Of a stretch of 38,721 nt of DNA, positions 14,935 to 38,613 are shown one piece after another. The notes below the pieces were generated by a model. It was given only the letters and a program-made list of their open reading frames with translations, was not told the origin of the DNA and did no database searches. Each line of letters starts with the position of its first letter. The first letter of the stretch is position 1. The stretch covers positions 1-38,721 of the IMG/VR virus record IMGVR_UViG_3300036832_001484; one strand, given 5' to 3'. This DNA comes from a virus. A program made the translations under genes and the position numbers.

Positions 14935-14980
14935 TGATAGCATGGAGAGCTGATTAAATTGTCAGCTGTCCGGGCTATCA
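14935..14980 (+). promoter_or_regulatory. Nested stem-loop leader before protease gene
   Basis: An inverted repeat TGATAGC ... GCTATCA encloses a second one, AGCTGA ... TCAGCT, giving a two-tier hairpin between the NusG-like stop and the protease ribosome-binding site (AGGAG before base 15001). It has no T-tract, so it looks more like an RNA stability or translation-control element than a terminator. Confidence 0.45.
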
Positions 14981-15000
14981 CGCCCATAGGAGTAGAACTT

Positions 15001-16110
15001 ATGAAAACATTGTCAAAATTGGGTGGACTCGCTGCGTTGCTTCTCTCAACTACGGCTATGGCCCAAGTGGTAACTAGAAGTCCTGAGGCGCCACCAAATC
15101 AACCTACAATTGACTATCAGAATGCCAAACCTATGCCGCTACCGCAGGCCAATCAACCTGCGCCAACCGGCGTGGACCTTCTGCGCAATCAAATCAATCC
15201 ATCACAAGTGTTCGGAAAACCAGGCGCGACAAAAGGTGGAGCAGGGTCAGGACAAGAAAACCCTCTGGATCTGGCGCCAAGCCAGGTCTTCCCTGAAGAT
15301 CTTGGTGTAGTGCCAGAAGAATTTGGTACTTCTGGTCTACCTTACTCGACCAGCAGGGTAAATGCGTTTCGTAACATCACTTCCAAGTTCTACCCATATC
15401 GGGCAGCTGGGAGGGTATTCTTCCAAATCGGTACATCAAACTTTGTATGCTCTGGATCAATGATTGATCCAGGCATCGTGGTACTAGCGGCGCACTGCGT
15501 AGCTCAATACGGATCGAACCAGTTCTATCACAATTGGGTATTCGTTCCGGCCTACAACAATGGGCGCGCGCCTTATGGCACGTTTGCAGCCAAACAGGCT
15601 TGGATCTTAACATCCTATCTCAATGGATCTGATCCTTGTGCGCAATCCGGTGTTATCTGTCGAGACGATGTAGCATTACTGGTTCTTTTCAGTAATGCCG
15701 GAAACACTGTAGGATGGTACGGCTATGGCTTTAATGGCTATAGCTACAATAACTCAGGAGAAGCTGAGATCACTGAGCTTGGTTATCCTGTTGCTCTTGA
15801 TCGAGGAGTGTTGATGGAGCGCAATGATTCCAGAGGGGACATTGTAGGATCACTCTCCAATAATACTGTCATCGGCTCATTGATGACAGGCGGTTCGAGC
15901 GGTGGACCTTGGCTGGTTAATTTCGGCCAAACACCAGCGCTTAATGGTACAAGCTTCGGCAGCTTCCCTGCTCACAACATCGTTGTTGGTGTCACCTCTT
16001 GGGGCTTCATCAACGACGCTGTGAAAGAGCAAGGAGCTTCATCATTTACCAGCAACAATATTGTCCCACTGGTAAATGCTGCTTGCAATGGTTCACCATC
16101 TTCTTGCTAA
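15001..16110 (+). CDS. Secreted trypsin-like (S1/V8-type) serine protease
   Basis: 369 residues. MKTLSKLGGLAALLLSTTAM with cleavage after AMA (residue 21) is a classical Sec signal peptide. A Pro/Gln-rich propeptide-like stretch runs to about 115. The catalytic domain shows His165 in VLAAHC, Asp222 or 223 in CRDDVALL, and Ser300 in GGSSGGPW; Cys150/166 and Cys213/220 could form disulphides. This layout is that of glutamyl-endopeptidase/trypsin-like enzymes exported to the periplasm or outside. The start is set by AGGAG 9 nt upstream; an ATG-less extension of 14 codons exists but breaks the signal peptide. A secreted protease is unusual cargo for a phage; roles in envelope remodelling, lysis or biofilm degradation are all possible. 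Confidence 0.88.
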   Translation: MKTLSKLGGLAALLLSTTAMAQVVTRSPEAPPNQPTIDYQNAKPMPLPQANQPAPTGVDLLRNQINPSQVFGKPGATKGGAGSGQENPLDLAPSQVFPEDLGVVPEEFGTSGLPYSTSRVNAFRNITSKFYPYRAAGRVFFQIGTSNFVCSGSMIDPGIVVLAAHCVAQYGSNQFYHNWVFVPAYNNGRAPYGTFAAKQAWILTSYLNGSDPCAQSGVICRDDVALLVLFSNAGNTVGWYGYGFNGYSYNNSGEAEITELGYPVALDRGVLMERNDSRGDIVGSLSNNTVIGSLMTGGSSGGPWLVNFGQTPALNGTSFGSFPAHNIVVGVTSWGFINDAVKEQGASSFTSNNIVPLVNAACNGSPSSC

Positions 16111-16174: not shown

Positions 16175-16447
16175 ATGCAAACGCTATCAAAACTCACACT
16201 AGCCGCGCTTCTATTCTCAACTCCAGTATTGGCGCAAGGCGTCATAATTGGCCCTGGTGGAGTAGAAGTTCAACCGCCATATCGTGAATACAATCAACAA
16301 GAATACCATCAACAATACTATCATCATCATAGAGGTGGTGTAGATTGTGCTGAGCTGCGCGCCGCGTGTCTTCATAAAGAAGAACTAGGTGAAGAAGGCC
16401 AAGGCAACTGCCAGCGCTATCGCACGTACTGCCGCGGATACCACTAA
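16175..16447 (+). CDS. Small secreted cysteine-containing protein
   Basis: 90 residues. MQTLSKLTLAALLFSTPVLA is a Sec signal peptide whose first half closely resembles that of the preceding protease (M-x-TLSKL), hinting at a shared origin. The mature part has a Tyr/Gln/His-rich stretch (NQQEYHQQYYHHHRGG), which might bind metal, and four cysteines (VDCAELRAAC ... GNCQRYRTYC) that could form two disulphides in the periplasm. No enzymatic motif. AAGGAG precedes the ATG. It may partner or inhibit the protease, but that is a guess from adjacency. Confidence 0.75.
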   Translation: MQTLSKLTLAALLFSTPVLAQGVIIGPGGVEVQPPYREYNQQEYHQQYYHHHRGGVDCAELRAACLHKEELGEEGQGNCQRYRTYCRGYH

Positions 16448-16458
16448 GGAGCGCCACC

Positions 16459-16743
16459 ATGCAATGCAAACAATGCTTCGGACGCGGATTGAGATGGACA
16501 AGTGATGAGGACTACGGTCCATGTCCTCAATGTCACGGCTTCGGTATCATTAGCTGTTGTGATACTGATTTACCTTCAGCTGATGATAGGCTCATTGACC
16601 CGCCAGTAACCAGAAGCAAAGTCAATCATGAAGTGTACTTCGTACCAAAGATGCTAGCGACAGGATATGAGATGCCATTCTCTGCTGCGCCACCAGATAC
16701 ACTTCAACAAGAGATCATTGATCTGATCTTGAAATACTACTAA
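16459..16743 (+). CDS. DnaJ-type zinc-ribbon small protein
   Basis: 94 residues. The first 30 hold two CxxCxGxG-like knuckles, CKQCFGRG and CPQCHGFG, the zinc-binding repeat of DnaJ central domains; SCCD follows. The remainder is acidic/hydrophobic without recognised motif and ends in a helix (LQQEIIDLILKYY). The start follows AAGGAGCGCCACC. Phages often encode such free zinc ribbons, whose partners are mostly unknown. A second protein of this type is at 29254-29562. Confidence 0.7.
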   Translation: MQCKQCFGRGLRWTSDEDYGPCPQCHGFGIISCCDTDLPSADDRLIDPPVTRSKVNHEVYFVPKMLATGYEMPFSAAPPDTLQQEIIDLILKYY

Positions 16744-16761
16744 CCACAAAGGAGCGCACCC

Positions 16762-17136
16762 ATGCCTAGAAGGAGCTGGTCAAATGATGAGAATGTCAGC
16801 TTCATTGATGAGTGGAATAAAGGTACGCCAATTGCTGTGATGGTTACTATCTTCGATATTGGCCAATCATCAATTTCGCACAAAGCCAAAAAGATGGGGC
16901 TCAAGCCACGTTACGTCTATTTTCTCCCAAAAGACAGAAAGCCAAAAGCGCCACCCTTAGATGCGCCCCCTCCACCATTGCGTAATGGCCTCACCATCAT
17001 GGAACTTGGTGAGAATAATTGTCGCTGGCTCATAGAGGACAAGCTTTACTGTGGTAAGCCAATTGGAAGCTTTGGCTTGCCATACTGCGCTAAACACTAC
17101 AAAATGTCAGTTCAGAAAAAGATAGAGGTAGTCTAA
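16762..17136 (+). CDS. gcrA-like: GcrA-family cell-cycle regulator
   Basis: 124 residues with both ends of GcrA. The N-terminal helix-turn-helix WSNDENVSFIDEWNKGTPIA ... SSISHKAKKMGLKPR (6-50) matches the WTxERVxxLxxLWxxG ... GKxxRLGLxxR pattern. After a Pro-rich linker the C-terminus has C87-R-W, C97-G and LPYC109-x2-H112, as in GcrA's CRWPIG ... FCG ... PYCxxH module that contacts sigma-70. GcrA is an alphaproteobacterial transcription factor acting at sigma-70 promoters containing methylated GANTC sites, controlling division and CcrM-linked genes. A phage copy could hold the host in a favourable cell-cycle state or redirect RNA polymerase to phage promoters. It shares TAATG with the next gene. 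Confidence 0.85.
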   Translation: MPRRSWSNDENVSFIDEWNKGTPIAVMVTIFDIGQSSISHKAKKMGLKPRYVYFLPKDRKPKAPPLDAPPPPLRNGLTIMELGENNCRWLIEDKLYCGKPIGSFGLPYCAKHYKMSVQKKIEVV

Positions 17137-25354: not shown

Positions 25355-26362
25355 TCAGATATATCTTTTCCACATATCCTCGAAGTCTTTTCTGAACCAA
25401 CAGCGCTGGACTTTCCCAGCACTGCCCTGTCTATGAGGCTTAGTTCTTATTTGAAATTCAATGAATATATTGCCTATCATACGCTTCGATACTTTATGTT
25501 CCACATAGTCAATTTCATGCTCTCCATCTTTGTCCTCGATTAATTTAGAATGGAGCGCATCTGTGGTAAGCATTTCCAGGTTTGTTTTGCTGAACACTTT
25601 GTGCGCATCACGCAGCACGCACTCTTTCACATCTGGCCCGTCAGTTTCTGTAATGAAGGCGAGCGCCGCTTTGCGCGCAACTTCACCACGATCAAACGAG
25701 TCTGCAATGGCGATTAACGGCCGCCACTTATCTGCATTACGTCCTACTAACTCAGTAGGCATTCGCGGATCACTTTCTAGTTCCGCTTGCTTTGCCCATT
25801 TAGAAAATTCAGGTTCATAATAGTGTTGCCTATTGTTGAACCGTTCAAGAGCTTTCGTGGAACGATGCAAGCGTATAATGAGCGATCTGCTCATTAGCGT
25901 AGCTGGAAGTCTACCTATTCCAGCGAGCGCAACTGGGCCGTAAACTGGGAATGATACCACATTCCCTAAAACGACGCGCGTCACACATCCACCTGCACTG
26001 TGTCCATCATTCAGAACTGATCTCATGCTCCGTATGATGGACATGTTGTCTACTTCGTCCAACAATAGAGTGTGCCCATTTGCTAGACGAAAGGTAGACG
26101 CTACAGTGGGATCGATCACTCTTTTAGCATTCCAAGTCATAGCACCAAGAACATCTAAAACCGTACTTTTGCCACAGTTAGGTACAGGACTAAGTATGGC
26201 AAGTCTTGGTGATTTGCTGTATTGGTTGTATATGTGCGTATGCAACGCCCATAAAGCCAATCCAACAAGGTAGTGGGGTTTTGTATCCACAAAATGTGCA
26301 AACATTCTTACCACTTGCTCAAGTGGGTTTACTTCACTTTGCGCTGCTTTATTAATGTTCAT
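25355..26362 (-). CDS. DUF3631-type replication ATPase/helicase
   Basis: 335 residues. Walker A is PVPNCGKST (59-67) and Walker B HTLLLDEVDN with Asp102-Glu103; the following VLNDGHSAGGCVTRVV and ALAGIGRLPATLMSRSLIIR segments match the DUF3631 core, which is found as the C-terminal half of phage and mobile-element primase-helicases. Here the ATPase stands alone without a TOPRIM or PrimPol head, so it may work with the separate PrimPol. The C-terminal 80 residues resemble a winged helix (TDALHSKLIEDKDGEHEIDY) for DNA contact. Its leader contains the same GGCAA...TTGCC hairpin as the plus-strand small genes. Convergent with terS. Confidence 0.82.
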   Translation of the reverse strand: MNINKAAQSEVNPLEQVVRMFAHFVDTKPHYLVGLALWALHTHIYNQYSKSPRLAILSPVPNCGKSTVLDVLGAMTWNAKRVIDPTVASTFRLANGHTLLLDEVDNMSIIRSMRSVLNDGHSAGGCVTRVVLGNVVSFPVYGPVALAGIGRLPATLMSRSLIIRLHRSTKALERFNNRQHYYEPEFSKWAKQAELESDPRMPTELVGRNADKWRPLIAIADSFDRGEVARKAALAFITETDGPDVKECVLRDAHKVFSKTNLEMLTTDALHSKLIEDKDGEHEIDYVEHKVSKRMIGNIFIEFQIRTKPHRQGSAGKVQRCWFRKDFEDMWKRYI

Positions 26363-26377
26363 TTCAGTTACTCCGAT

Positions 26378-26389
26378 GGCAAAATTGCC
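26378..26389 (-). promoter_or_regulatory. GGCAATTTTGCC hairpin ahead of the DUF3631 gene (cassette copy)
   Basis: On the minus strand TTTTAGGCAATTTTGCCAT precedes CGGAGTAACTGAAATG, the same arrangement (T-tract, GGCA...TGCC dyad, GGAG-type site, start) as in the rightward cassettes. About 90 nt further upstream a GGCGCAGCAGCGCT hairpin followed by TGCTATTTG resembles their terminator half. This shows the element works in either orientation and is tied to gene starts. Confidence 0.55.
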
Positions 26390-26508
26390 TAAAAGGAGAA
26401 CTGAGCCTCATTTTTACGTGGCCGTGTGCTATCTAGCTCTAGTCCCTGCCACATTCCGTTCCGATTCACAATGTCAAATAGCAGGAGCGCTGCTGCGCCC
26501 GACGCGAT

Positions 26509-26608: not shown

Positions 26609-26637
26609 TTGCTTTCCTCCGCGGACTATGCTAGACT
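26609..26637 (+). promoter_or_regulatory. Promoter of the right-arm operon, with TCCGCGGA palindrome
   Basis: The -35 TTGCTT (26609-26614), a 17-nt spacer ending TATGC, and -10 TAGACT (26632-26637). TCCGCGGA (26618-26625) occupies the same part of the spacer as in the promoter at 14327. The first RNA hairpin starts at about the expected +1 (26642), as usual for stable structured transcripts. Confidence 0.65.
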
Positions 26638-26640
26638 ATA

Positions 26641-27138
26641 GTTCGGGAGAGGAAGAGATTCCCTCCCGAAGTGAAGTAGACCGAGGGTGAATATGATCCT
26701 CGGGAGTGAGTAGCAAACAAAGAACAAGAAAACTGAAGTGGCGCGCTCCCTCGAAGCTATTTGAACTGTGAAGCACTTAAACCGCCCTAGCGCGCTAGGG
26801 TGAGCGAAGGCGTTTATTCAATAAGGCAGAAGCCGCCTGAATCTTTGAACGCTTAGTACCTCGCCCATGAAGCGCTACAAGGTGGGATACGTTTAACGCC
26901 AGTTAAAGAGCGACAAAATTGGCAAGGATGCGATAGGAAATGGAAGCTAGATAGCACATGATCGCAGACAGGGAAAGAAACTGAATATGAGTTTCTAGCG
27001 CCTGCAATCCGACAGCTTAGTGAGACACGTAGATGACAGGACTAAATGAAATAGTGCTTGTGATCGTAAAACTCGCACACTGAGCAGACAATCACACAGA
27101 GCACAGAGAGCGTTCTGAAATGGGGCGCCTCTGTGCTC
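26641..27138 (+). ncRNA. Large folded leader or stand-alone RNA (about 500 nt)
   Basis: No credible frame, but a dense succession of stems: TTCGGGA/TCCCGAA with GGAA-GAGA-TTCC at its tip (GNRA loop, 26642-26670); CCGAGG/CCTCGG (26681-26703); the perfect palindrome CCCTAGCGCGCTAGGG (26785-26800); GCGTT.ATTCA ... TGAAT.AACGC (about 26811-26852) around GGC-AGAA-GCC; CCCAT/GTGGG (26864-26886); TTTAAC-GCCA-GTTAAA (26892-26907); TGCGAT/ATCGCA (26929-26966); AGAAACT/AGTTTCT (26976-26996); TTAGT/ACTAA (27017-27045). At the end GAGCACAGAG/CTCTGTGCTC (27099-27138) competes with GTGCT.TGTGAT/ATCACA.AGCAC (27054-27104), an either/or switch. It starts at a promoter and ends before the first gene. It resembles ornate phage RNAs in style; I cannot assign a family. 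Confidence 0.65.
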
Positions 27139-27171
27139 GATGGGATTGTTTCCCTAAATGAGGCTACTACA

Positions 27172-27348
27172 ATGAAAATGACAGCACAAGAGAAAGTGAA
27201 GCGTAAGAAACGCAAGGGATTCAGAATGCTAGATGGCATCGCAAAATTGGATCCTGAGCGATGTGAGCGACATCTCCCGACAAAATGGGAAAGAGAATAT
27301 GATGTCGCTGTGATCGTAAGCAAAAAAGAAGCGAGAAAATGGCGATGA
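27172..27348 (+). CDS. Small Lys/Arg-rich protein
   Basis: 58 residues, MKMTAQEKVKRKKRKGFRML then DGIAKLDPERCERHLPTKWE and a basic end KKEARKWR. The very basic N-terminus suggests nucleic-acid binding. The start follows GAGGCTACTACA, the ribosome-binding site style shared by the right-arm genes; a GTG 39 nt upstream lies inside the leader hairpin and is unlikely. First gene after the structured RNA. Confidence 0.65.
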   Translation: MKMTAQEKVKRKKRKGFRMLDGIAKLDPERCERHLPTKWEREYDVAVIVSKKEARKWR

Positions 27349-28033: not shown

Positions 28034-28074
28034 GGGGCGCTACTTAGGTGGCGCTCCTATTAGGCACTTTTGCC
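28034..28074 (+). terminator. Terminator/hairpin cassette A
   Basis: GGGGCGC - TACTTAGGTG - GCGCTCC (7 bp with one G-U pair), then TATTAG, then the short hairpin GGCA-CTTT-TGCC (28063-28074), then AAAATGAGGCTATGTT and ATG. First copy of the recurring intergenic unit. Confidence 0.7.
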
Positions 28075-28095
28075 ACAACAAAATGAGGCTATGTT

Positions 28096-28392
28096 ATGAA
28101 TAAGATTGAATGGAACGAACTATGCGACGAAAAAGTGGAGAATGAGAAAGAAATCCTAAGTGTTGAGTACAATGCAACTAATGAAGCGGAAAAGAAAATC
28201 CGTTCATTATACTTGCATGGGACTACTGAGGAAGGAGTGAAAATAACGATATTTGAGACAAACGAGTCCGATGGAACATCGGCTGCTCCACCATACTTCT
28301 GTGTGGGGCATCTAACTCCGGCTGAATGTTTGGCAGGAGAAGTAGCTTATGTGGAGAAGAACGGTTACATTAATGACCGTTTAGGCAAATAA
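28096..28392 (+). CDS. Acidic hypothetical protein
   Basis: 98 residues: MNKIEWNELCDEKVENEKEI, a helical charged N-terminus, then KKIRSLYLHGTTEEGVKITI and YFCVGHLTPAECLAGEVAYV. No family recognised. It is a monocistronic unit bounded by cassettes A and B, each with a terminator-like stem, and is preceded by the standard GAGGCTA site. Confidence 0.65.
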   Translation: MNKIEWNELCDEKVENEKEILSVEYNATNEAEKKIRSLYLHGTTEEGVKITIFETNESDGTSAAPPYFCVGHLTPAECLAGEVAYVEKNGYINDRLGK

Positions 28393-28399
28393 TTGATTT

Positions 28400-28437
28400 G
28401 GGACGCGTGCGATGCGTCCCTATTAGGCACTTTTGCC
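28400..28437 (+). terminator. Terminator/hairpin cassette B
   Basis: GGGACGC - GTGCGAT - GCGTCCC is a perfect 7-bp stem, followed by TATTAG and GGCA-CTTT-TGCC (28426-28437), then CTAAATGAGGCTACGTT and ATG. It has the GTGCGAT loop, also seen in cassette D. Confidence 0.72.
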
Positions 28438-28459
28438 ACAACCTAAATGAGGCTACGTT

Positions 28460-28687
28460 ATGGAAAAAGAAGACATACAAGTATTGGAGTCTCTTCTCGA
28501 AGAATACGGATTAAGTGACATCTTAACAGCGATGGCAACTATAATTCGTATGAAGGTGGAAGCAAGAAAGCTAGATCCAAAAGTTGAAGCTGCCGGATTG
28601 CATCCTTTTCCACACGCGCTCGCAATGAGAGAGACGCGATTGAAGAAAGCGATGCAACTTCAAGAACTAGCTAATCGTATCGACTAA
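28460..28687 (+). CDS. Small helical protein
   Basis: 75 residues, MEKEDIQVLESLLEEYGLSD then ILTAMATIIRMKVEARKLDP; almost entirely helical and amphipathic, no cysteine. No family recognised. Starts after cassette B with GAGGCTACGTT. Confidence 0.65.
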   Translation: MEKEDIQVLESLLEEYGLSDILTAMATIIRMKVEARKLDPKVEAAGLHPFPHALAMRETRLKKAMQLQELANRID

Positions 28688-28741
28688 GTGAGGCTAGAAT
28701 GTGGCGCCGCGAACATCGAAGTCACAGATTAGGAGGCTATT

Positions 28742-28966
28742 ATGCCATTAACTGCAAACATGGTATTGCGCATCATTCGCGATGCGGAATTTAAGCTCGA
28801 TGGATATGCAGAAACATATGTGAATGCACTTCCACGTGCTGAAGCAGAGTATGGTGAACGTGGAGTACGCGTTCAGATACTCTACATTCTGAGCAACATG
28901 CGCGCTTCGGGTCCAAAGCAAAAAGAAGCGAAGAAACAACTTCAAAAATTAGCAAAAACTAATTGA
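28742..28966 (+). CDS. Small helical basic protein
   Basis: 74 residues, MPLTANMVLRIIRDAEFKLD ... YILSNMRASGPKQKEAKKQL. The C-terminus is Lys-rich. TAGGAGGCTATT precedes the ATG. The 54-nt gap upstream holds a second GAGGCTAGA-ATG, which opens a 31-codon overlapping frame I do not accept as a gene. No family recognised. Confidence 0.65.
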   Translation: MPLTANMVLRIIRDAEFKLDGYAETYVNALPRAEAEYGERGVRVQILYILSNMRASGPKQKEAKKQLQKLAKTN

Positions 28967-28972
28967 ACTATG

Positions 28973-29014
28973 GCGCGCTACTTATGTGGCGCGCTTCTTT
29001 TAGGCAATTTTGCC
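28973..29014 (+). terminator. Terminator/hairpin cassette C
   Basis: GCGCGC - TACTTATGTG - GCGCGC with TTCTTTT immediately after (a good intrinsic terminator), then GGCAATTTTGCC (29003-29014), then ATAACTAAATGAGGCTAAC and ATG. The loop TACTTATGTG nearly repeats that of cassettes A and E. Confidence 0.78.
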
Positions 29015-29033
29015 ATAACTAAATGAGGCTAAC

Positions 29034-29246
29034 ATGAATACCACAGATACTACAGATACTACAGAATATGATCCTCGTCTAATGGCGATGATAAAAGCAG
29101 AGTCAGATGCTCGTAAAAGAAGCAATGATTTTGCTCAATTATATAAAACTTCAAAACGTGCGTCAGATAGGCGTAATGAAGCCTATTGGGATGGGCGCGC
29201 GTCCGGTATAGCAAAAGCCATAGACATTTTATCAAGAGATTGGTGA
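29034..29246 (+). CDS. Small hypothetical protein with Thr-Asp-rich start
   Basis: 70 residues, MNTTDTTDTTEYDPRLMAMI; the TDT repeat reflects a triplet repeat in the DNA (ACAGATACT). The rest (KAESDARKRSNDFAQLYKTS and NEAYWDGRASGIAKAIDILS) is helical and basic. No family recognised. Confidence 0.65.
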   Translation: MNTTDTTDTTEYDPRLMAMIKAESDARKRSNDFAQLYKTSKRASDRRNEAYWDGRASGIAKAIDILSRDW

Positions 29247-29253
29247 GACTACA

Positions 29254-29562
29254 ATGAGCAATAAGAAACACGATCCATGGATCGTCTGCCCCGTCTGTAA
29301 CGGTGAAGGAAAGACTGTCAATCCAAATATAGACGCGCATGGATTAACTCGTGAAGATTTCGACGAAGATCCAGACTTCGCCGAAGATTACATGGCAGGC
29401 GTATATGACATTACGTGCGCCGCTTGCAATGGAATGCGCGTTGTGAAGCGCCAACGCATTCGGCAATTGGAACAAGCTGCTGAAGATCGCGCATTAGCTG
29501 CGCGTGAGAACGGCGATTGGGAATCATATAGTGTCGCGCGTGATTGGCGATACGGAGGCTAA
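29254..29562 (+). CDS. DnaJ-type zinc-ribbon protein
   Basis: 102 residues. CPVCNGEGKTVNPN and, about 45 residues later, CAACNGMRVVKRQR give a split CxxCxGxG zinc site as in DnaJ central domains and many phage accessory proteins. An acidic loop (DFDEDPDFAEDYMAG) separates the two halves and the C-terminus is a charged helix. Likely a stand-alone zinc-binding fold; the partner is unknown. Compare 16459-16743. Confidence 0.72.
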   Translation: MSNKKHDPWIVCPVCNGEGKTVNPNIDAHGLTREDFDEDPDFAEDYMAGVYDITCAACNGMRVVKRQRIRQLEQAAEDRALAARENGDWESYSVARDWRYGG

Positions 29563-29563
29563 A

Positions 29564-29860
29564 ATGAAAAAGATTATAATAATTGCTGCTTTATTGGCAA
29601 CAAGTGTAACTTCAGTATCAGCTTTAGGTGTAGAAGATCTTACATGTGAACAAAAAAAGGAACACATGGCTGATATTATGAAAGATTATGAATATTTCGT
29701 AAGTGAAGCTGAAAAAGCAAGATTTAGAGGAGAAATGACACATCAAGAAATGGATGACTCAATTAAAAATCAATTTATAGATATAATAGAAGTTCAAAAA
29801 TATTTGCAAAAAGATTATATTGATGCTGGTTGTAAAAATAAATCAACTACTACAAAATAA
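29564..29860 (+). CDS. Small secreted protein
   Basis: 98 residues. MKKIIIIAALLATSVTSVSA is a Sec signal peptide (cleavage after VSA). The mature part LGVEDLTCEQKKEHMADIMK ... DYIDAGCKNK is helical with two cysteines that may form one disulphide. GGAGGCTAAA precedes the ATG, one base after the upstream stop. Codon use is more AT-rich than in its neighbours. Periplasmic role unknown. Confidence 0.75.
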   Translation: MKKIIIIAALLATSVTSVSALGVEDLTCEQKKEHMADIMKDYEYFVSEAEKARFRGEMTHQEMDDSIKNQFIDIIEVQKYLQKDYIDAGCKNKSTTTK

Positions 29861-29881
29861 TTTAGAATTCAAGAGGCTACA

Positions 29882-30073
29882 ATGAAAAAGAAGGCAATGA
29901 GTGTGCGTGAGCGTGTTCTTCAAAGTTTGAATGATCAAGCAGCGCACAAGATTGCTAGACTTGAAGCAATGATAGCTCGGCTTCAAGATGAGCGCGAAGC
30001 TGATGCATTGGAAATCAGTTTCCTGCATCAAAGAGTTTTGAAATATGAATGCAAAATGAAAGGAAACTATTGA
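29882..30073 (+). CDS. Small leucine-zipper-like protein
   Basis: 63 residues, MKKKAMSVRERVLQSLNDQA followed by a coiled coil HKIARLEAMIARLQDEREAD with heptad-spaced Leu/Ile and a basic end. It probably dimerises. AAGAGGCTACA precedes the ATG. No family recognised. Confidence 0.68.
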   Translation: MKKKAMSVRERVLQSLNDQAAHKIARLEAMIARLQDEREADALEISFLHQRVLKYECKMKGNY

Positions 30074-30077
30074 ATTT

Positions 30078-30116
30078 GAGGCGCGTGCGATGCGCCTCTA
30101 TTTGGCAATACTGCCA
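30078..30116 (+). terminator. Terminator/hairpin cassette D
   Basis: GAGGCGC - GTGCGAT - GCGCCTC (perfect 7 bp), TATTT, then TGGCA-ATAC-TGCCA (30103-30116), then TGGAGACCATACT and ATG. Loop identical to cassette B although the stem sequence differs, that is, compensatory change. Confidence 0.75.
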
Positions 30117-30129
30117 TGGAGACCATACT

Positions 30130-30351
30130 ATGTCGTCAGAATTTGACTCTCACGCAGCAGCAGATGCCATCGACAACGTTCTGAGAACATTTTCGGAACT
30201 TGAATCTCTTTCTGAAGATAGAAGAAAGTATCTGGAGAGAGAATTGAATAATCTTCTTCGCAAATCCTACGATGAAGGATTCTCTGATGGAGAAGAAGCT
30301 GCCGAAGAAGATGAGAAAGAAGAAGGTGAGAAAGAAGAAGAACACGAATAG
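30130..30351 (+). CDS. Small acidic protein
   Basis: 73 residues, MSSEFDSHAAADAIDNVLRT ... EDRRKYLERELNNLLRKSYD and then a run of Glu/Asp/Lys (DGEEAAEEDEKEEGEKEEEH). The helical N-terminal part plus an acidic tail is reminiscent of DNA-mimic or polymerase-binding phage factors, but no family is recognised. Confidence 0.65.
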   Translation: MSSEFDSHAAADAIDNVLRTFSELESLSEDRRKYLERELNNLLRKSYDEGFSDGEEAAEEDEKEEGEKEEEHE

Positions 30352-30368
30352 TTGAGTAATTGAACTTG

Positions 30369-30390
30369 GGGCGCTGCTTATGTGGCGCCC
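30369..30390 (+). terminator. Terminator cassette E (short hairpin degenerate)
   Basis: GGGCGC - TGCTTATGTG - GCGCCC (6 bp, one more G available), ACTTTTAGG, then TAATAGGAGGCTACA and ATG. The GGCA...TGCC hairpin is reduced to AGGTAAT, so this copy lacks the second half. Confidence 0.7.
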
Positions 30391-30414
30391 ACTTTTAGGT
30401 AATAGGAGGCTACA

Positions 30415-30789
30415 ATGAAACATGTTATCACGATAGCAATTCTGCTATCAACTACATCTGCTATGGCAGAGCAAAAATGGACGCATTTACCAGATGGTAG
30501 ATGGATGTTTGTGGATCCAAATGATCCGCCTAAATCTGCTCCATCAAACTCGCAAATGTGTGATTTTGAACATCACTGTTATGGAGGTGAAGAATCTTCA
30601 CCATCACCAACTGCGGTTTTACCACCATCACCGTCAACAAATCTTCCACCATCGCATCTTTTATCACAGCCCCAGTCTATGCCAAAAGTTACATATAATC
30701 CAGAACCGGATTGTTGGGATATGAGGCAGGGCATTTTCCCAACAGCTGAAGCAGCTAGAAACGCACGCATCGCATGTGGAGATGAATGA
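30415..30789 (+). CDS. Secreted Pro/Ser-rich protein
   Basis: 124 residues. MKHVITIAILLSTTSAMA is a Sec signal peptide. The mature protein begins EQKWTHLPDGRWMFVDPNDP, has a low-complexity Ser/Pro linker (SSPSPTAVLPPSPSTNLPPS) and a C-terminal WDMRQGIFPTAEAARNARIA segment with paired cysteines. No catalytic motif. Its TGA overlaps the next ATG. Confidence 0.72.
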   Translation: MKHVITIAILLSTTSAMAEQKWTHLPDGRWMFVDPNDPPKSAPSNSQMCDFEHHCYGGEESSPSPTAVLPPSPSTNLPPSHLLSQPQSMPKVTYNPEPDCWDMRQGIFPTAEAARNARIACGDE

Positions 30790-30995
30790 TGCCCAAAGAC
30801 TTGTGGACTGGACAACATTATGTGGGTTTATGTTCATGTAATAGTGGATTACGTGCATATGAGAGAAAAGATGCACGTGACATATTTCTATGTTTTGCAT
30901 GTAATGATTGTTGGGAAGAAAAACAAAAAAGATTCCGTCGTGATGTGTTAGATGATCCAAACTATTGGCATGATGAGCCAATAGATGATGAATAG
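30786..30995 (+). CDS. Small Cys-rich protein
   Basis: 69 residues, MMPKDLWTGQHYVGLCSCNS with C-S-C early and CFACNDC in the middle, a plausible zinc site, then an acidic tail (DDPNYWHDEPIDDE). Starts in an ATGATG overlap with the upstream stop. No family recognised. Confidence 0.65.
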   Translation: MMPKDLWTGQHYVGLCSCNSGLRAYERKDARDIFLCFACNDCWEEKQKRFRRDVLDDPNYWHDEPIDDE

Positions 30996-31004
30996 GAGAT
31001 GTAA

Positions 31005-31235
31005 ATGGCAAATAAAATCAAAGTTCTAAAAGAATACGAAGATGGATTAATTATCCAATGGAACAATTCCATCTGGGTAATTCGTTCTGACGGGGATCAG
31101 CCATCACTCTGGCCTGTGGCGCTTCTATCGAAAGATAAATATGGACATACAGCAATTGTCATACCAAAAGGCACAGACGTAGCTAATGCCAATGCTATAA
31201 TGGCATTGCTAATTGGTATTCCAGATTTGTTTTAA
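31005..31235 (+). CDS. Small beta-rich hypothetical protein
   Basis: 76 residues: MANKIKVLKEYEDGLIIQWN, NSIWVIRSDGDQPSLWPVAL, then a hydrophobic C-terminal helix ANAIMALLIGIPDLF. Short strands suggest an SH3-like barrel. GGAGATGTAA precedes the ATG. No family recognised. Confidence 0.65.
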   Translation: MANKIKVLKEYEDGLIIQWNNSIWVIRSDGDQPSLWPVALLSKDKYGHTAIVIPKGTDVANANAIMALLIGIPDLF

Positions 31236-31247
31236 AGGGGAATGTGA

Positions 31248-31520
31248 ATGATCTTACAACCAGGTCAAAGAGTGCGCTGTATTCGCACTTGTGAAGGCGA
31301 ATGTGCAGGGGAAGCTATTAAAGGTCATATTTATACTGTCATGAACGTAAATGATTTGGGAATCACTTTAGAAGAAATCATATGTGGTATAGGGGGATGC
31401 ACAAATCATTCACTATTTGATCCACGTAATTTCAAGCCTCTTGGAGGTGAAGATGAGGAAATCAAAAAGCTTAAAAAATTGATTAAAGCTCCAAAGAAAA
31501 AATTGGAACCTGTTGACTAA
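31248..31520 (+). CDS. Small SH3/KOW-like protein
   Basis: 90 residues, MILQPGQRVRCIRTCEGECA, GHIYTVMNVND, LGITLEEIICGIGGC and FDPRNFKPLG. The PGQRVRCI ... G.IYTV pattern is that of small SH3-like barrels seen in many phage proteins. The C-terminus is Lys-rich. Four cysteines might bind metal. AGGGGAATGTGA lies upstream. Function unknown. Confidence 0.65.
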   Translation: MILQPGQRVRCIRTCEGECAGEAIKGHIYTVMNVNDLGITLEEIICGIGGCTNHSLFDPRNFKPLGGEDEEIKKLKKLIKAPKKKLEPVD

Positions 31521-31525
31521 ATGAT

Positions 31526-31562
31526 TAGTGGCGCAGCAGCGCCACTATTTGGCACTTTTGCT
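31526..31562 (+). terminator. Terminator/hairpin cassette F
   Basis: TAGTGGCGC - AGCA - GCGCCACTA is a perfect 9-bp stem, then TTT, then GGCA-CTTT-TGCT (31551-31562), then ACAACAGAGGTTATC and ATG. The AGCA tetraloop form matches the GGCGCAGCAGCGC hairpin on the minus strand near 26480-26495. Confidence 0.75.
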
Positions 31563-31577
31563 ACAACAGAGGTTATC

Positions 31578-31892
31578 ATGGCACATAAATATCAAATTTG
31601 GTATATGAAACCTTCATGGTTTATAAATGGAAATGCATTTAAAGAAAAACCAAATCCACAAGATTTGGGATATACGCATATCTACCTAAAAGACTTTGAG
31701 ATGGAAAATAGTAATCTTGAAATCATCTATGCTGCTATGCAAGGTGAAGTTTGGTCACCAAATGGTGAAGCAAGAGATCTGATAAGATCAAAAGGTCTTC
31801 AGCATACCTCAATGTCTATTGGTGATGTTATAGTAAATGATTTGGGTACAGCATATATGGTTGCTTCAGAAGGATTTTTATTACTGACGTAA
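31578..31892 (+). CDS. YodL-like domain protein
   Basis: 104 residues. YQIWYMKPSWFINGNAF, THIYLKDFEMENSNLEIIYA, QGEVWSPNGEARDLIRSKGL and HTSMSIGDVIVNDLGTAYMV follow the YodL-type pattern, whose diagnostic feature is HTSMSVGDVI. Such proteins occur in phages and conjugative elements; their biochemical role is not established. The gene follows cassette F and precedes the expanded cassette G. Confidence 0.7.
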   Translation: MAHKYQIWYMKPSWFINGNAFKEKPNPQDLGYTHIYLKDFEMENSNLEIIYAAMQGEVWSPNGEARDLIRSKGLQHTSMSIGDVIVNDLGTAYMVASEGFLLLT

Positions 31893-31897
31893 TATAT

Positions 31898-32014
31898 TGG
31901 CGCGATCTGACTAGCATCACCCCCGGTGCTCTCAGGTGAATGACTCTGAAAGAGAGAGCAGAGTTCAATTGATGAAGGAGGATGGATCCTCGCCGCGCCA
32001 TTTGGTATTTTAAC
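31898..32014 (+). promoter_or_regulatory. Expanded cassette G: multi-branched RNA element
   Basis: A 7-bp closing stem TGGCGCG (31898-31904) / CGCGCCA (31994-32000), as in the other cassettes, but its loop is expanded to about 89 nt containing CACC-CCC-GGTG, ACTCTG/CAGAGT and GGAT-GG-ATCC type hairpins, predicting a four-way junction. TTTGGTATTTTAACATGGAGGCTACT follows, a decayed form of the GGCA...TGCC unit plus ribosome-binding site. No tRNA features (no T-loop sequence, no CCA end) are present. Confidence 0.55.
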
Positions 32015-32026
32015 ATGGAGGCTACT

Positions 32027-32257
32027 GTGATAAAGGTAACGGATGATATTTTTCAAGAACTGCTCCGAATTCAAGGAGCAGTGGTAGAAGCATATGGCAT
32101 TCATGCTGTGACACTTGCCATAATGAAGATCATAGATAGAAAAGCTGAGCATCATGCTGTCACTTTGACAGATATAACGATGGCTAGACATTGGGCGAAC
32201 TGCTCTGATGCCGCAGTTGCGCTTGAAGCTGTAACATTGCGGGAGTTTGGAGAATGA
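32027..32257 (+). CDS. Small helical protein, GTG start
   Basis: 76 residues, beginning (GTG) MIKVTDDIFQELLRIQGAVV then EAYGIHAVTLAIMKIIDRKA and WANCSDAAVALEAVTLREFG. I chose GTG because GGAGGCTACT lies directly before it, the same context as neighbouring ATG starts; ATG codons at 31982 or 32015 would place the start inside or before that site. No family recognised. Confidence 0.62.
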   Translation: MIKVTDDIFQELLRIQGAVVEAYGIHAVTLAIMKIIDRKAEHHAVTLTDITMARHWANCSDAAVALEAVTLREFGE

Positions 32258-32484
32258 AAAAACTTCTCACCATAGCACTTCTAATAGCGAACCACACTGC
32301 TCATTCAGCAGAGACTTGTCAAACAACTGGAAAACTCACACATTGTTGGGACTCTAACACTGGTGCGCTGCATTCAACTATTGAACAAAGCAACAGTGGA
32401 TATTCCCATACTTGGACGCCGCAAGGCGAGAACTTTACAACATGGGACCACAATGGTCTCTCGAATACATGGAGAACAAAATGA
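32254..32484 (+). CDS. Small secreted protein
   Basis: 76 residues. MKKLLTIALLIANHTAHSAE is a short Sec signal peptide. The mature part CQTTGKLTHCWDSNTGALHS ... YSHTWTPQGENFTTWDHNGL has Thr/Trp/His-rich repeats and two cysteines. ATGA overlaps with both neighbours. The style resembles small secreted proteins of Rhizobiales phages; function unknown. Confidence 0.72.
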   Translation: MKKLLTIALLIANHTAHSAETCQTTGKLTHCWDSNTGALHSTIEQSNSGYSHTWTPQGENFTTWDHNGLSNTWRTK

Positions 32485-32675
32485 AATTTGTTGTGAAAAA
32501 TACTTCCCGTGGATGGGAAATTGAGCTTTGCAAACCAATAAGAGAAGGAAGTAAATATTTTCACACAGCAAAGCTACAGTGGCGCACCTTGCCAGAAAAT
32601 CTAAATCCAGACTTCATTTATGAAGACTATGAGGAAGCAAAAGATGCTCTGGAAAGAAGGAAATCTGAGAAATGA
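32481..32675 (+). CDS. Small hypothetical protein
   Basis: 64 residues, MKFVVKNTSRGWEIELCKPI ... FIYEDYEEAKDALERRKSEK: a beta hairpin followed by a helix. Starts in an ATGA overlap and ends in another. No family recognised. Confidence 0.65.
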   Translation: MKFVVKNTSRGWEIELCKPIREGSKYFHTAKLQWRTLPENLNPDFIYEDYEEAKDALERRKSEK

Positions 32676-32869
32676 TTAAAAAAGTAACCAAAAAACAGCG
32701 AGAGCGTCTTGCTGAGTTGCGCATAGGTCTCGACTCATATGCTAGACCACTACGTGACGTAGATATGTTACGCAATGTGGTTGATGAGCTTTTGGCAATA
32801 TTACTTAATGAGCCAGGTGAAACTGGCAAGAAAGGTGATGTCAAAAGCTATCGGGGAGATGATATATGA
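32672..32869 (+). CDS. Small helical protein
   Basis: 65 residues, MIKKVTKKQRERLAELRIGL, a helix with VDMLRNVVDELLAILLNEPG, then a polar tail. ATGA overlaps at both ends. No family recognised. Confidence 0.65.
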   Translation: MIKKVTKKQRERLAELRIGLDSYARPLRDVDMLRNVVDELLAILLNEPGETGKKGDVKSYRGDDI

Positions 32870-33195
32870 ATAATATCATATATCATGATTTTAAGAAAAG
32901 TCCAAATCAAAACAAACCAAAAAATTGTGTCAATTTTAGTAATTGCACAAATTTTGAAGCAGAAATTTACTCAATAAATTTTGAAGAATTTACTTATCAT
33001 AATAATCGTAAACCTGGTGATGAATATTATATTGGAGCACAAATAGGAATTGATGAAGGGGAATTTCCAGTAATTGATATTCAATTTAGTGAAATGTTAA
33101 TAGCATATATTATGCCATTAGATGAGGCTAAAAAATTAGTGAATGTATTATTGGAATGTATTAAAGAATTAGAGCCACCGCTATCATCAGCTTAG
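32866..33195 (+). CDS. Hypothetical protein
   Basis: 109 residues, Asn/Lys-rich N-terminus (DFKKSPNQNKPKNCVNFSNC), then beta strands (EYYIGAQIGIDEGEFPVIDI) and a C-terminal helix (LDEAKKLVNVLLECIKELEP). Two closely spaced cysteines. Very AT-rich codon use. No family recognised. Confidence 0.65.
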   Translation: MNNIIYHDFKKSPNQNKPKNCVNFSNCTNFEAEIYSINFEEFTYHNNRKPGDEYYIGAQIGIDEGEFPVIDIQFSEMLIAYIMPLDEAKKLVNVLLECIKELEPPLSSA

Positions 33196-33207
33196 TTGGA
33201 GAATTGA

Positions 33208-33657
33208 ATGCCAAATCAATGTGGCAGTTGTACTTTATGTTGCAAACTATTGGGTGTACCAGAGCTTAAAAAACCACCTGGTAAATGGTGCGCCCATTGT
33301 ACTATTGGAAAAGGCTGCAAAATTTATCCAGAAAGACCGCAGCCTTGCGTTGATTTTGAATGTGGTTGGTTAATATCGAATTTGCCACTTGAGTATCGCC
33401 CAGATCATTCTCATATGGTAATGACAGGTGAGAATGATAAAACATTTTTTATCCATATAGATCCAAATTATCCTAATGCTACTGAGACTAAAATAGGGCA
33501 GAAAATATTAGATTTGATACATAAATCTGGTTTGTCAATAATTTTAGTGACAGGAGATAAAAGGAAACTTTTATCAACATCATTTAGAGAATTAGAAAAA
33601 GCACAAGCACTCATGAAGAAGATGGAGATCAAAGATGCCAAGATCAAAGAAAGCTGA
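33208..33657 (+). CDS. CxxCxxCC (YkgJ-type) metal-cluster protein
   Basis: 149 residues. The opening CGSCTLCCKLLGVPELKKPP with C5-x2-C8-x2-C11-C12, then WCAHCTIGKGCKIYPERPQP and C-x5-C-type residues (CVDFECGW), is the YkgJ/CxxCxxCC pattern, thought to bind zinc or an iron-sulphur cluster. The C-terminal 80 residues are an alpha/beta extension with IILVTGDKRKLLS. Phage versions are known but their function is not. It overlaps the next gene by 23 nt. Confidence 0.78.
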   Translation: MPNQCGSCTLCCKLLGVPELKKPPGKWCAHCTIGKGCKIYPERPQPCVDFECGWLISNLPLEYRPDHSHMVMTGENDKTFFIHIDPNYPNATETKIGQKILDLIHKSGLSIILVTGDKRKLLSTSFRELEKAQALMKKMEIKDAKIKES

Positions 33658-33877
33658 CAAATTCCAATTAGAATTTGAAAAAGAGGCGCTGCTTGAAAGA
33701 TGCGCCAATCTTATATTGGCGTTGAAGCCGTTTGCTGATTTAGCAGATTATTTCGATGGCAGAAATGACAAAGAAATAATCAAACCAACATTAAATGTTG
33801 GATACTTACGCGCAGCCAAGAAGGCGATAGATGACGCACTATATGACTACTCAAACGAAAAGGAGAAAGTAAAATGA
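33635..33877 (+). CDS. Small helical protein
   Basis: 80 residues, MPRSKKADKFQLEFEKEALL ... NLILALKPFADLADYFDGRN and GYLRAAKKAIDDALYDYSNE. Two amphipathic helices; the KPFADLADYFDG motif resembles small phage coil proteins. GGAG lies 8 nt ahead of the ATG inside the upstream gene; ATGA overlap with the next gene. Confidence 0.65.
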   Translation: MPRSKKADKFQLEFEKEALLERCANLILALKPFADLADYFDGRNDKEIIKPTLNVGYLRAAKKAIDDALYDYSNEKEKVK

Positions 33878-34113
33878 ACCCGTTACTACCGTTTGCACTA
33901 ATCAGTAGTTGGTGGTATTACGATACTGGAATACATCAATGTGCTCCAGGAGTATCGCCAGCTGAAATGGTCCATTTCATAGAGAATATGGGACAAACTC
34001 CCCGTGTTCGATATGATGGAAAGCGTATCTTGGTAATGAAGAATACCGATGATACGCAAGGTCTTATTTTCTACCAAAGTAAGACTGACTGCGAGGAAGA
34101 CGGAAGAACTTGA
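33874..34113 (+). CDS. Hypothetical protein, possibly membrane-anchored
   Basis: 79 residues: MNPLLPFALISSWWYYDTGI has a short hydrophobic N-terminus too weak for a clear signal peptide, then HQCAPGVSPAEMVHFIENMG and a beta-rich end. One Cys near the N-terminus and one near the C-terminus could pair if exported. Starts in an ATGA overlap. Confidence 0.62.
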   Translation: MNPLLPFALISSWWYYDTGIHQCAPGVSPAEMVHFIENMGQTPRVRYDGKRILVMKNTDDTQGLIFYQSKTDCEEDGRT

Positions 34114-34122
34114 GAGGCTACT

Positions 34123-34353
34123 ATGAGTCAAGGTGAATTTAGTGTGTGTCAATTTTTTGAGAATGACACATATGAGTATGTGCGCCGCTATGTAAGTGCT
34201 GAAGAAGCAATGAAAGCAGCGGTTCATTATTCTAGTAATGTGGCTTGCAAGCTTGGTATTACCAAGCGAGTCATCATTACTGATGGAGGAGATTGCGTTA
34301 ATTGGGAATGGATTAACGGACAGGGCGTGACATTCCATTGGCAAGAATCCTAG
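34123..34353 (+). CDS. Small hypothetical protein
   Basis: 76 residues: MSQGEFSVCQFFENDTYEYV, RRYVSAEEAMKAAVHYSSNV, VIITDGGDCVNWEW. The middle (YVSAEEAMKAAVHY) resembles short phage proteins that take a ferredoxin-like or beta-alpha-beta fold. GAGGCTACT precedes the ATG. The stop lies inside the 34349-34383 hairpin. Confidence 0.65.
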   Translation: MSQGEFSVCQFFENDTYEYVRRYVSAEEAMKAAVHYSSNVACKLGITKRVIITDGGDCVNWEWINGQGVTFHWQES

Positions 34354-34435
34354 TGGCGATTCTGCCCCCCAGGCACCACTAGGTATGACTGGCCGAGCGC
34401 AAGCTCGGCCTTTTTCATTTGTTAGGCAATTTGCC
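34349..34435 (+). terminator. Cassette H: double terminator plus GGCAATTTGCC hairpin
   Basis: First hairpin CCTAGTGG ... CCACTAGG (34349-34383) with nested TGCC/GGCA. Second, a canonical intrinsic terminator GGCCGAGC-GCAA-GCTCGGCC followed by TTTTT (34391-34415, GNRA loop). Then TTAGGCAATTTGCCA (34425-34435) and TGGAGGTTACT-ATG. This is the strongest stop in the right arm, yet it is followed by the same short hairpin and site as the others. Confidence 0.85.
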
Positions 34436-34447
34436 ATGGAGGTTACT

Positions 34448-36971: not shown

Positions 36972-37367
36972 ATGGCATTCAAACTTGTAGCAATCGTTAA
37001 CGATAGTTTGTCATTAGGATCAATTCTAATGACAAAAGGTGTAACTGTAATATCAATAGATACTTATATTGGAGAAGCAGTTTCAAAAGAAAGTGCGAAA
37101 ATACTTTCATCAACTAAAAAGAGAATCAAAAGATTTTCTCATCCAGAAGGAAAAACTGGTAGTGATCTTATAATGGAATATATGTTAGTTAGTCAAAAAG
37201 CACAATGGGGTGAATTAAAAAGTTTTTTAGTAAAACAAGGATTTTCAGAATCATCTGTTAATAATGCCATACAAAGATTAGTAAATGATTCAAATATAAC
37301 CAGAGTTAAATCTGGAACATACGTTCTTAATCTTGAGAAAGCTCTTGAACTAAATCATCAGAAATAA
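36972..37367 (+). CDS. Hypothetical protein with winged-helix-like C-terminus
   Basis: 131 residues. N-terminal 45 (MAFKLVAIVNDSLSLGSILM) are beta/helix; the C-terminal 60 (LIMEYMLVSQKAQWGELKSF, NNAIQRLVNDSNITRVKSGT) resemble a winged helix with a wing hairpin. GGAGTAAA precedes the ATG. Its last 41 nt overlap the convergent PrimPol gene tail to tail. A DNA-binding regulator is plausible. Confidence 0.65.
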   Translation: MAFKLVAIVNDSLSLGSILMTKGVTVISIDTYIGEAVSKESAKILSSTKKRIKRFSHPEGKTGSDLIMEYMLVSQKAQWGELKSFLVKQGFSESSVNNAIQRLVNDSNITRVKSGTYVLNLEKALELNHQK

Positions 37368-38565
37368 TCTGTTCTGTACCAGATATTTCGGCAAGTTGTT
37401 TTTTGGTATCTTCATCTAAAGTTTCAATTCCCTTCCACGGAAGTTGAAATCCATGTTCTTGTGCAAAATAAATGAGTCCTCCTAATTTCTTCGTTCCAAT
37501 ACGAGGAAGCTCAGGATGATGGGAGCGCCACTGCCTCATAAAATACCTTGGGCCGCGTCCATTCACTCCGTATCGAGTGCCACCTGAAATAGCCAACATA
37601 AATAATTCTTCAGCTTCTGCTAATGTGATTTTACTATATTCATTAGTATCATGTATAGCACCTATGAGTGGAAACATAACATTGTGGGCATATATTTCAT
37701 TATTATCTGCTAATCCATTTTTACGAATATATTCACAACATTCTTTGGCTTTTAAATATCCAGTCCAATCCGTCTTCTTGGAGGGCTTAAATGGGCGCTT
37801 GGCGTGAGTTGCTGGTTGTATGCTCGACAGCGATTCTATTTGGGATCTTAGTTTACGTATATCAACTTTCTGATAGTTTTCTACTAAAATCTGTGATAAC
37901 GCTGGCTTTTGGCCTTTCTCTTGTTTTTCTAATTTTGGATAGTTGACAGTTCCAGGTAATCGCATCACCCTGTCTACATTTGACATTGAATCTATTTTCC
38001 AACCATTAAATTTGGAGCGCAACAAATGCTCGAAATCACGAGCTAATGCAGTAACAATCATTCTATTTTCAATAATTTTATTATTGATTTGTTCTTCTTC
38101 GTCGTTTTTTGGTGGACGAAACAATTTTATGTTTTCAATTTTATTGAGAAGATAGATTAGATGATAACCACCTCCAGTAAATATGATAATAGATGGTTTT
38201 AGTTCATTATCTAAGTTTTTGTCTATGGCATCTAATACAGTTTCATGTGGCGCAAGCACATCTATATCAAATGCTAAGGCTCGAATTGCTATAATGTCAT
38301 CTACATTGTTTTTCCCATATACACCTTGACGATGAATAACTTTACATGGTCTATTAACTGAATAATATATGTTGGAGCCTCTATCTTGACGTTCATGTAT
38401 ATCGCGGATCAAAAGATCTCTTTGAGAAGCTTCATAGGTACACCCTATTTCCCACTTAGGAAGTCCATTTTTCCCAAATGGAGCTTCAGAAGCAATAGTA
38501 TGTCTGGCATTAGGATCTAGTTGATCAAGGAAGTACAATGCGTGATTTATATCTAGTTTGAGCAT
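37327..38565 (-). CDS. PrimPol-type (archaeo-eukaryotic primase) replication protein
   Basis: 412 residues. AEP motif I is ALAFDIDVLA with Asp100 and Asp102; motif II is FTGGGYHLIY with His135; motif III is VDRVMRLPGTVNYPK around residues 200-215, the D.xR..RLPGT.N pattern of phage/plasmid RepB-like primases. The C-terminal third holds a helical PriCT-like segment (GTRYGVNGRGPRYFMRQWRS). It should synthesise primers, perhaps DNA, for the separate helicases at 20514 and 25355. The start is fixed by AAGGAGGT 4 nt ahead; a frame extension of 16 codons upstream overlaps its promoter. Convergent overlap with 36972-37367. Confidence 0.86.
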   Translation of the reverse strand: MLKLDINHALYFLDQLDPNARHTIASEAPFGKNGLPKWEIGCTYEASQRDLLIRDIHERQDRGSNIYYSVNRPCKVIHRQGVYGKNNVDDIIAIRALAFDIDVLAPHETVLDAIDKNLDNELKPSIIIFTGGGYHLIYLLNKIENIKLFRPPKNDEEEQINNKIIENRMIVTALARDFEHLLRSKFNGWKIDSMSNVDRVMRLPGTVNYPKLEKQEKGQKPALSQILVENYQKVDIRKLRSQIESLSSIQPATHAKRPFKPSKKTDWTGYLKAKECCEYIRKNGLADNNEIYAHNVMFPLIGAIHDTNEYSKITLAEAEELFMLAISGGTRYGVNGRGPRYFMRQWRSHHPELPRIGTKKLGGLIYFAQEHGFQLPWKGIETLDEDTKKQLAEISGTEQIISDDLVQELSQD

Positions 38566-38584
38566 GGTTACCTCCTTAAACCGT

Positions 38585-38613
38585 ATTATAGCACAAGTAG
38601 GAAGTGAAAGCAA
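38585..38613 (-). promoter_or_regulatory. Strong promoter for the PrimPol gene
   Basis: Minus strand: -35 TTGCTT (38608-38613), a 17-nt spacer ending TTGTGC, and a perfect -10 TATAAT (38585-38590), then AAGGAGGT and ATG. The best match to the promoter family of this phage. Confidence 0.8.

Follow-up and report, generated by a model that had tools for sequence, protein, structure and literature searches.

Genes of the right arm and the recurrent intergenic cassette

The DNA analysed here (the window) comprises positions 1 to 38,721 of the 38,721-base virus record IMGVR_UViG_3300036832_001484, whose genome may be incomplete. Its right arm carries about 32 small plus-strand genes flanked by an ATPase-like and a replication-type minus-strand gene, and about eight of these 32 called genes are preceded by a recurrent intergenic cassette: a GC-rich hairpin (hairpin 1, HP1), a short AU-rich linker, a second hairpin (hairpin 2, HP2, GGCA...TGCC), a Shine-Dalgarno sequence (SD) and the start codon. 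The right-arm genes without a cassette mostly overlap or closely follow the preceding gene. The whole analysis rests on sequence comparison; gene calls were made with simple scripts, and the E-values of the two covariance models built for this work (R1 and R2) are rough. The features of the array and the flanking genes are as follows.

25355-26362, minus strand: ATPase-like gene (named by eye)
26378-26389, minus strand: HP2 ahead of the ATPase-like gene (start 26362); the nearest GC stem (26485-26500) is not adjacent
28034-28057, plus strand: HP1 of copy A; linker 28058-28062, HP2 28063-28074, GAGGCTA 28085-28091, start 28096
28400-28420, plus strand: HP1 of copy B, GTGCGAT loop; linker 28421-28425, HP2 28426-28437, GAGGCTA 28449-28455, start 28460
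28972-28995, plus strand: HP1 of copy C; linker 28996-29002, HP2 29003-29014, GAGGCTA 29025-29031, start 29034
30078-30098, plus strand: HP1 of copy D, GTGCGAT loop; linker 30099-30103, HP2 30104-30115, GGAG 30118-30121, start 30130
30369-30390, plus strand: HP1 of copy E, without HP2; GAGGCTA 30406-30412, start 30415
31526-31547, plus strand: HP1 of copy F, AGCA loop; linker 31548-31550, HP2 31551-31562, GAGGTTA 31569-31575, start 31578
31898-32001, plus strand: "copy G", a branched structure and no cassette
34350-34384, plus strand: upstream hairpin of copy H, CCCCCC loop, common to the relatives
34391-34410, plus strand: HP1 of copy H, GCAA loop, strong U-tract; HP2 34425-34435, GGAGG 34438-34442, start 34448
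37327-38613, minus strand: replication-type gene (named by eye)

The original prediction counted nine copies. The full order is present in A, B, C, D and F, all with an HP2 of the form GGCA-N4-TGCY, a GAGG-type SD and an ATG start; H is a longer composite that keeps the order with inserted sequence, its GC hairpin lying behind a second structure (34350-34384). The other three are not complete cassettes: E lacks HP2, the minus-strand copy matches in HP2 and SD only (26378-26394), with its GC stem about 95 nucleotides (nt) away, and G was rejected, being a branched structure of about 105 nt. This structure is closed by TGGCGCG/CGCGCCA and lies in the gap ahead of a gene starting at 32015 or 32027. 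The three recurrent loop types described before are real: TACTTA[T/G]GTG or TGCTTATGTG in A, C and E; GTGCGAT in B and D; and AGCA in F and in the minus-strand stem 26485-26500. The cassette takes up the whole interval separating the stop and start codons of adjacent genes (exactly 67 nt in each of A, B and C), its orientation relative to the gene is constant, five of the seven window copies have HP1 starting 3-7 nt past the previous stop codon, and the recurrent sequence at right-arm starts is GAGGCTA.

Conserved pairing of the cassette hairpins

When HP1 of five window copies was aligned in register, 97% of the cells paired, compared with 78% in shuffled alignments, and changes on both sides were found at 7 of the 10 pairs, a count that comes from five sequences only. 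Since not every copy need be homologous along HP1, the stronger evidence is provided by orthologous sites in related phages (referred to by locus numbers beginning with L). L205 and L209 share the same two genes with near-identical flanks, yet their HP1 stems differ, and at one of the two orthologous sites HP2 has switched from GGCA/UGCC to GGUC/GACC. Among 12 HP2 variants, double changes were found in two of the four pairs; the covariation score was above all 500 shuffles, the number of double-change pairs not above chance. Together, the HP1 covariation, the HP2 switch and the differing stems at orthologous sites support the proposal that stems vary with pairing kept and that the RNA structure of the cassette is under selection. 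Pairing between linker and SD can form in some copies; it is weakly favoured in the relatives and no better than with shuffled partners in the window.

Related phages carry the cassette and hammerhead ribozymes

Relatives were found through the capsid protein and through an alignment of the family of the gene at 29254 (the 29254 family), whereas two right-arm proteins, each searched singly, gave none. R1, built from five window copies, matched the cassette in eight related phage contigs (E-values down to 1.6e-8), so the covariance search suggested earlier did return further copies. The matched relatives share the capsid gene or right-arm genes, and have right-arm and flanking genes in common. 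A stringent DNA pattern describing the cassette as it stands in the window, GAGGCTA included, matched no viral contig; the TTTTAGGCAATTTTGCCA core pattern did match viral contigs, and in 84,980 bacterial and archaeal genomes it gave 34 matches, all of them lacking the cassette layout. Those named phages whose capsids are related have structural genes in common with this group; the genome parts compared gave no hammerhead or cassette match.

A further element, GAYC-GAAA-[hairpin]-NUH-[hairpin]-CUGANGA-GRUC, recurs in the intergenic gaps of the relatives; its sequence identifies it as a type II hammerhead ribozyme core. The elements have an intact GAAA...NUH...CUGANGA core and stems I-III, with stem II open; in an alignment of 23 copies all 13 pairs are formed in every sequence and 8 of the 13 covary, and the elements are predicted to self-cleave. 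A covariance model of this hammerhead (R2) gave 51 strong matches in eleven loci of the clade plus one marginal match (39 matches in eight loci after setting aside three duplicate loci). The hammerheads form arrays of 3-7 in gaps equivalent to the cassette gaps, and in all 38 cases measured the distance from the upstream stop codon to the hammerhead start is between -1 and +4 nt. Phage hammerheads have long been known in clusters. The Rfam model Hammerhead_II (RF02276) aligns one copy with an E-value of 0.001, below its curated gathering score, and misses another; Rfam as a whole gave nothing at curated cut-offs in the window or the relatives, and the window matches were at chance level only. 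A hammerhead in the window was rejected: R2 had no match there at E-values up to 10, and its best unfiltered score was 7 bits.

Exchange of cassette and hammerhead ahead of orthologous genes

Right-arm proteins were clustered into families and the element preceding each gene was compared. Four families have a hammerhead ahead of the gene in one phage and a cassette in another:

Family of window gene 34448 (behind copy H): L202 with a hammerhead; the window, L205 and L209 with a cassette
29254 family: L202 with a hammerhead; L211 with a cassette; the window with neither element
Third family: L211 with a hammerhead; L205 and L209 with a cassette
Fourth family: L206 and L207 with a hammerhead; L208 with a cassette

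The two elements also share hairpins. A stretch of HP1, 19 nt long in L209 and 18 nt in L205, matches a hammerhead stem III exactly; of the 17 HP1s compared, four match such a stem over 11 nt or more, compared with a mean of 0.03 for shuffled hairpins; and hammerhead stem III loops also show the GTGCGAT sequence found in HP1 of window copies B and D.

Terminator strength of the cassette

The cassette has the stable GC-rich hairpin of an intrinsic terminator. The U-tract was scored with the nT measure of d'Aubenton Carafa, for which the usual cut-off is about 2.9. The values for A (1.89), B (1.89), C (2.61), D (2.25), E (1.18) and F (1.57) are all below the E. coli cut-off, and the tails in the relatives mostly score about 1.9. 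As this cut-off was derived from E. coli, weaker tails might suffice in the host. Terminator-like hairpins are over-represented at 20-38.7 kb (26 against 13.4 ± 3.6 expected), and a promoter scan, which covers the sigma-70 type only, was near chance (68 against 59.2 ± 6.2 expected).

Other elements in the window and the relatives

Upstream of the right-arm genes lies a non-coding stretch of about 540 nt (26635-27175), which folds far better than shuffled sequences (z -7.5) and begins with two strong hairpins behind promoter-like sequence. The relatives have a recognisable counterpart of the 3' domain of this leader (GAGCACAG...CTGTGCTC enclosed by an outer helix); the entire leader had no match in named phages. 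An apparent cassette copy before 27172 was rejected, comparison with the relatives showing it to be the 3' domain of this conserved structured leader.

The gaps of the relatives also contain a three-way-junction element with the conserved sequence GT[A/C]CCAGC...CTGGCGT...ACGAAAGT, which we were unable to place in any family and which may be a further processing RNA. Another hairpin, in which a long stem closes a CCCCCC loop, recurs in the window and the relatives and in several phages lies just upstream of a cassette. Positions are:

Three-way-junction element: L202 16474; L207 17272; L208 15574 and 16539; L209 14133; L211 15905
CCCCCC-loop hairpin: window 34350-34384; L204 13156; L205 12364; L206 10071; L207 13608; L208 12706; L209 12598; L211 12255

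In the left arm, small genes recurrently have AAGGAGCGC ahead of the start (16447-16762), distinct from the GAGGCTA of the right arm. The predicted protein at 14959-16110 has a secretion-like start and trypsin-like motifs (AAHC, GGSSGGPW) recognised by eye; it had no match in PHROGs.

Interpretation and rival explanations

We propose, with a probability of roughly one half, that the cassettes are punctuation joints of mRNA that divide a long message into separate messages. The right arm would be transcribed as long multi-gene RNAs running through the array, and the RNA would be cut, or sometimes end, in the AU-rich single-stranded linker between HP1 and HP2, most likely through an RNase E-type endonuclease of the host. 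This would leave the upstream message with a stable 3' hairpin near its stop codon and would put a 5' hairpin directly before the SD of the downstream message, and both hairpins may protect the new ends. Hammerhead self-cleavage in the relatives would give the same geometry, with stem III at the 3' end and stem I at the 5' end. Hammerheads work on RNA only after the polymerase has passed, and their presence in the same slots argues for arrays transcribed as long RNAs and for a role shared by hammerhead and cassette, namely defining message ends. The replacement of one element by the other ahead of orthologous genes, the stretches common to HP1 and stem III, the position of both elements close behind the stop codon, the double changes in HP2 and the weak tails also favour this reading. 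We consider improbable a further reading, in which the cassette has a specific cleavage function of its own, as an undescribed small self-cleaving RNA or a dedicated endonuclease site, and evolved to replace the hammerheads functionally at the same junctions; the window phage would then wholly depend on it.

Several observations count against the division of long messages by these joints. The window phage is without any hammerhead, and the slot exchange is suggestive of more than chance rather than conclusive, its permutation result being modest (four families against a mean of 1.84 when cassettes were reassigned randomly to genes; four or more in 206 of 5000 trials, p about 0.04). The sequence of HP2 (GGCA-AUUU-UGCC) is kept across phages, a conservation that exceeds the need of simple end protection; its fourth pair is broken in five relative copies (GGCAATTTAGCC), and because this broken pair is tolerated the HP2 sequence matters besides its pairing. 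The linker CUUUUA is well conserved in the relatives, as a terminator would need, and copy H, with an nT of 4.36, is the sole window copy above the cut-off and by its score a good terminator. These last two points favour the main rival, in which the cassettes are partial terminators: HP1 and its U-containing linker would release a share of the polymerases behind every block of genes, the output of downstream genes declining progressively, and HP2 with the SD would serve translation of the next gene. Read-through would then come from the weak tails, from a closely following ribosome (HP1 lies 3-7 nt past the stop) or from a phage antiterminator. The GC-rich stems with U-containing tails, the excess of such sites and the stable loops such as UUCG in the relatives' hairpins all agree with partial termination. 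Against it, six of the seven window tails are below the usual cut-off, the same slots hold hammerheads, which do not act as terminators, and the conserved HP2 is left unexplained; we hold this explanation to be possible but rather unlikely. The stronger claim of the original prediction, a terminator before almost every gene combined with a dedicated read-through system, is not supported as stated: its premise is wrong, only about a quarter of the genes being preceded by a cassette, the weak tails and the hammerheads speak against it as well, and no antitermination factor was identified.

The cassette, with its stop codons and SD, could instead mainly provide homology for shuffling small genes between phages, in the manner of T4-type mobile cassettes, the RNA structure being secondary. 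The gene behind the cassette does differ from phage to phage, and the two element types have exchanged HP1 modules; the compensatory changes, which keep pairing yet erase identity, are the opposite of what homologous exchange needs, and we judge such recombination joints very doubtful as the main explanation. They are compatible with a cassette that also divides messages. Least probable of all appears a protein-binding site on DNA or RNA, in which HP2 would be the target of a regulator ahead of the SD that switches translation or transcription of the following gene. The conservation of the HP2 sequence and the capacity of the linker to pair with the SD in some copies fit this possibility, whereas the linker-SD result in the window does not; the gene-bound orientation, the G-U pairs and the compensated stems speak against a DNA operator, and for an operator or promoter the sigma-70-type scan gave no clear excess. 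A sigma-54 promoter reading of GGCA...TGCC was rejected for its wrong spacing.

To our knowledge, the role of phage-borne hammerheads is still unproven. The clade offers a natural experiment, in which orthologous genes stand behind a hammerhead in one phage and behind a non-ribozyme hairpin pair in another. Should both elements yield identical message ends, phage hammerheads would serve mRNA punctuation, and a second, uncharacterised route to it would exist. The cassette elements are short and modular, and easy to test in a reporter.

Comparison with known systems

The cassette resembles intrinsic terminators in its GC-rich stem and U-containing tail, and differs from them in the insufficient strength of most of its tails and in the second hairpin and SD that come directly afterwards. 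The mobile regulatory cassettes of T4-type phages are reportedly hairpin-bearing intergenic cassettes that lie in a variable region, are associated with module shuffling and have an early promoter inside; in the window cassette no promoter is evident from the scan, which covers the sigma-70 type. The Start Associated Sequences and extended SAS (SAS/ESAS repeats) of cluster K mycobacteriophages are confined to the right arm, where they lie at the starts of a subset of genes, ahead of unrelated genes, and about half have an upstream inverted repeat (PMC3203893); similar motifs are found in cluster EF Microbacterium phages (PMC7302621). The window cassette shares this placement in the right arm at the translation starts of a gene subset. 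However, the SAS/ESAS inverted repeats lack kept RNA pairing and the authors favour DNA binding (PMC3203893), whereas the pairing of the cassette is kept by compensatory changes (97% of cells) and HP1 follows the previous stop codon; the 13-bp SAS sequence GGGATAGGAGCCC was not the one found at starts here, where GAGGCTA recurs.

The closest precedent is that of the clustered prophage hammerheads (Perreault et al. 2011, PMC3088659), intergenic RNA elements around single genes or short blocks, whose tandem arrays were shown to cleave and for which the authors propose a processing of long phage transcripts into mRNAs of gene length. Type II arrays of this kind are present in the relatives. Unlike them, the window cassette has no ribozyme core; it occupies equivalent slots and has hairpins in common with hammerheads, and its RNA, if cut at all, would be cut by something else.

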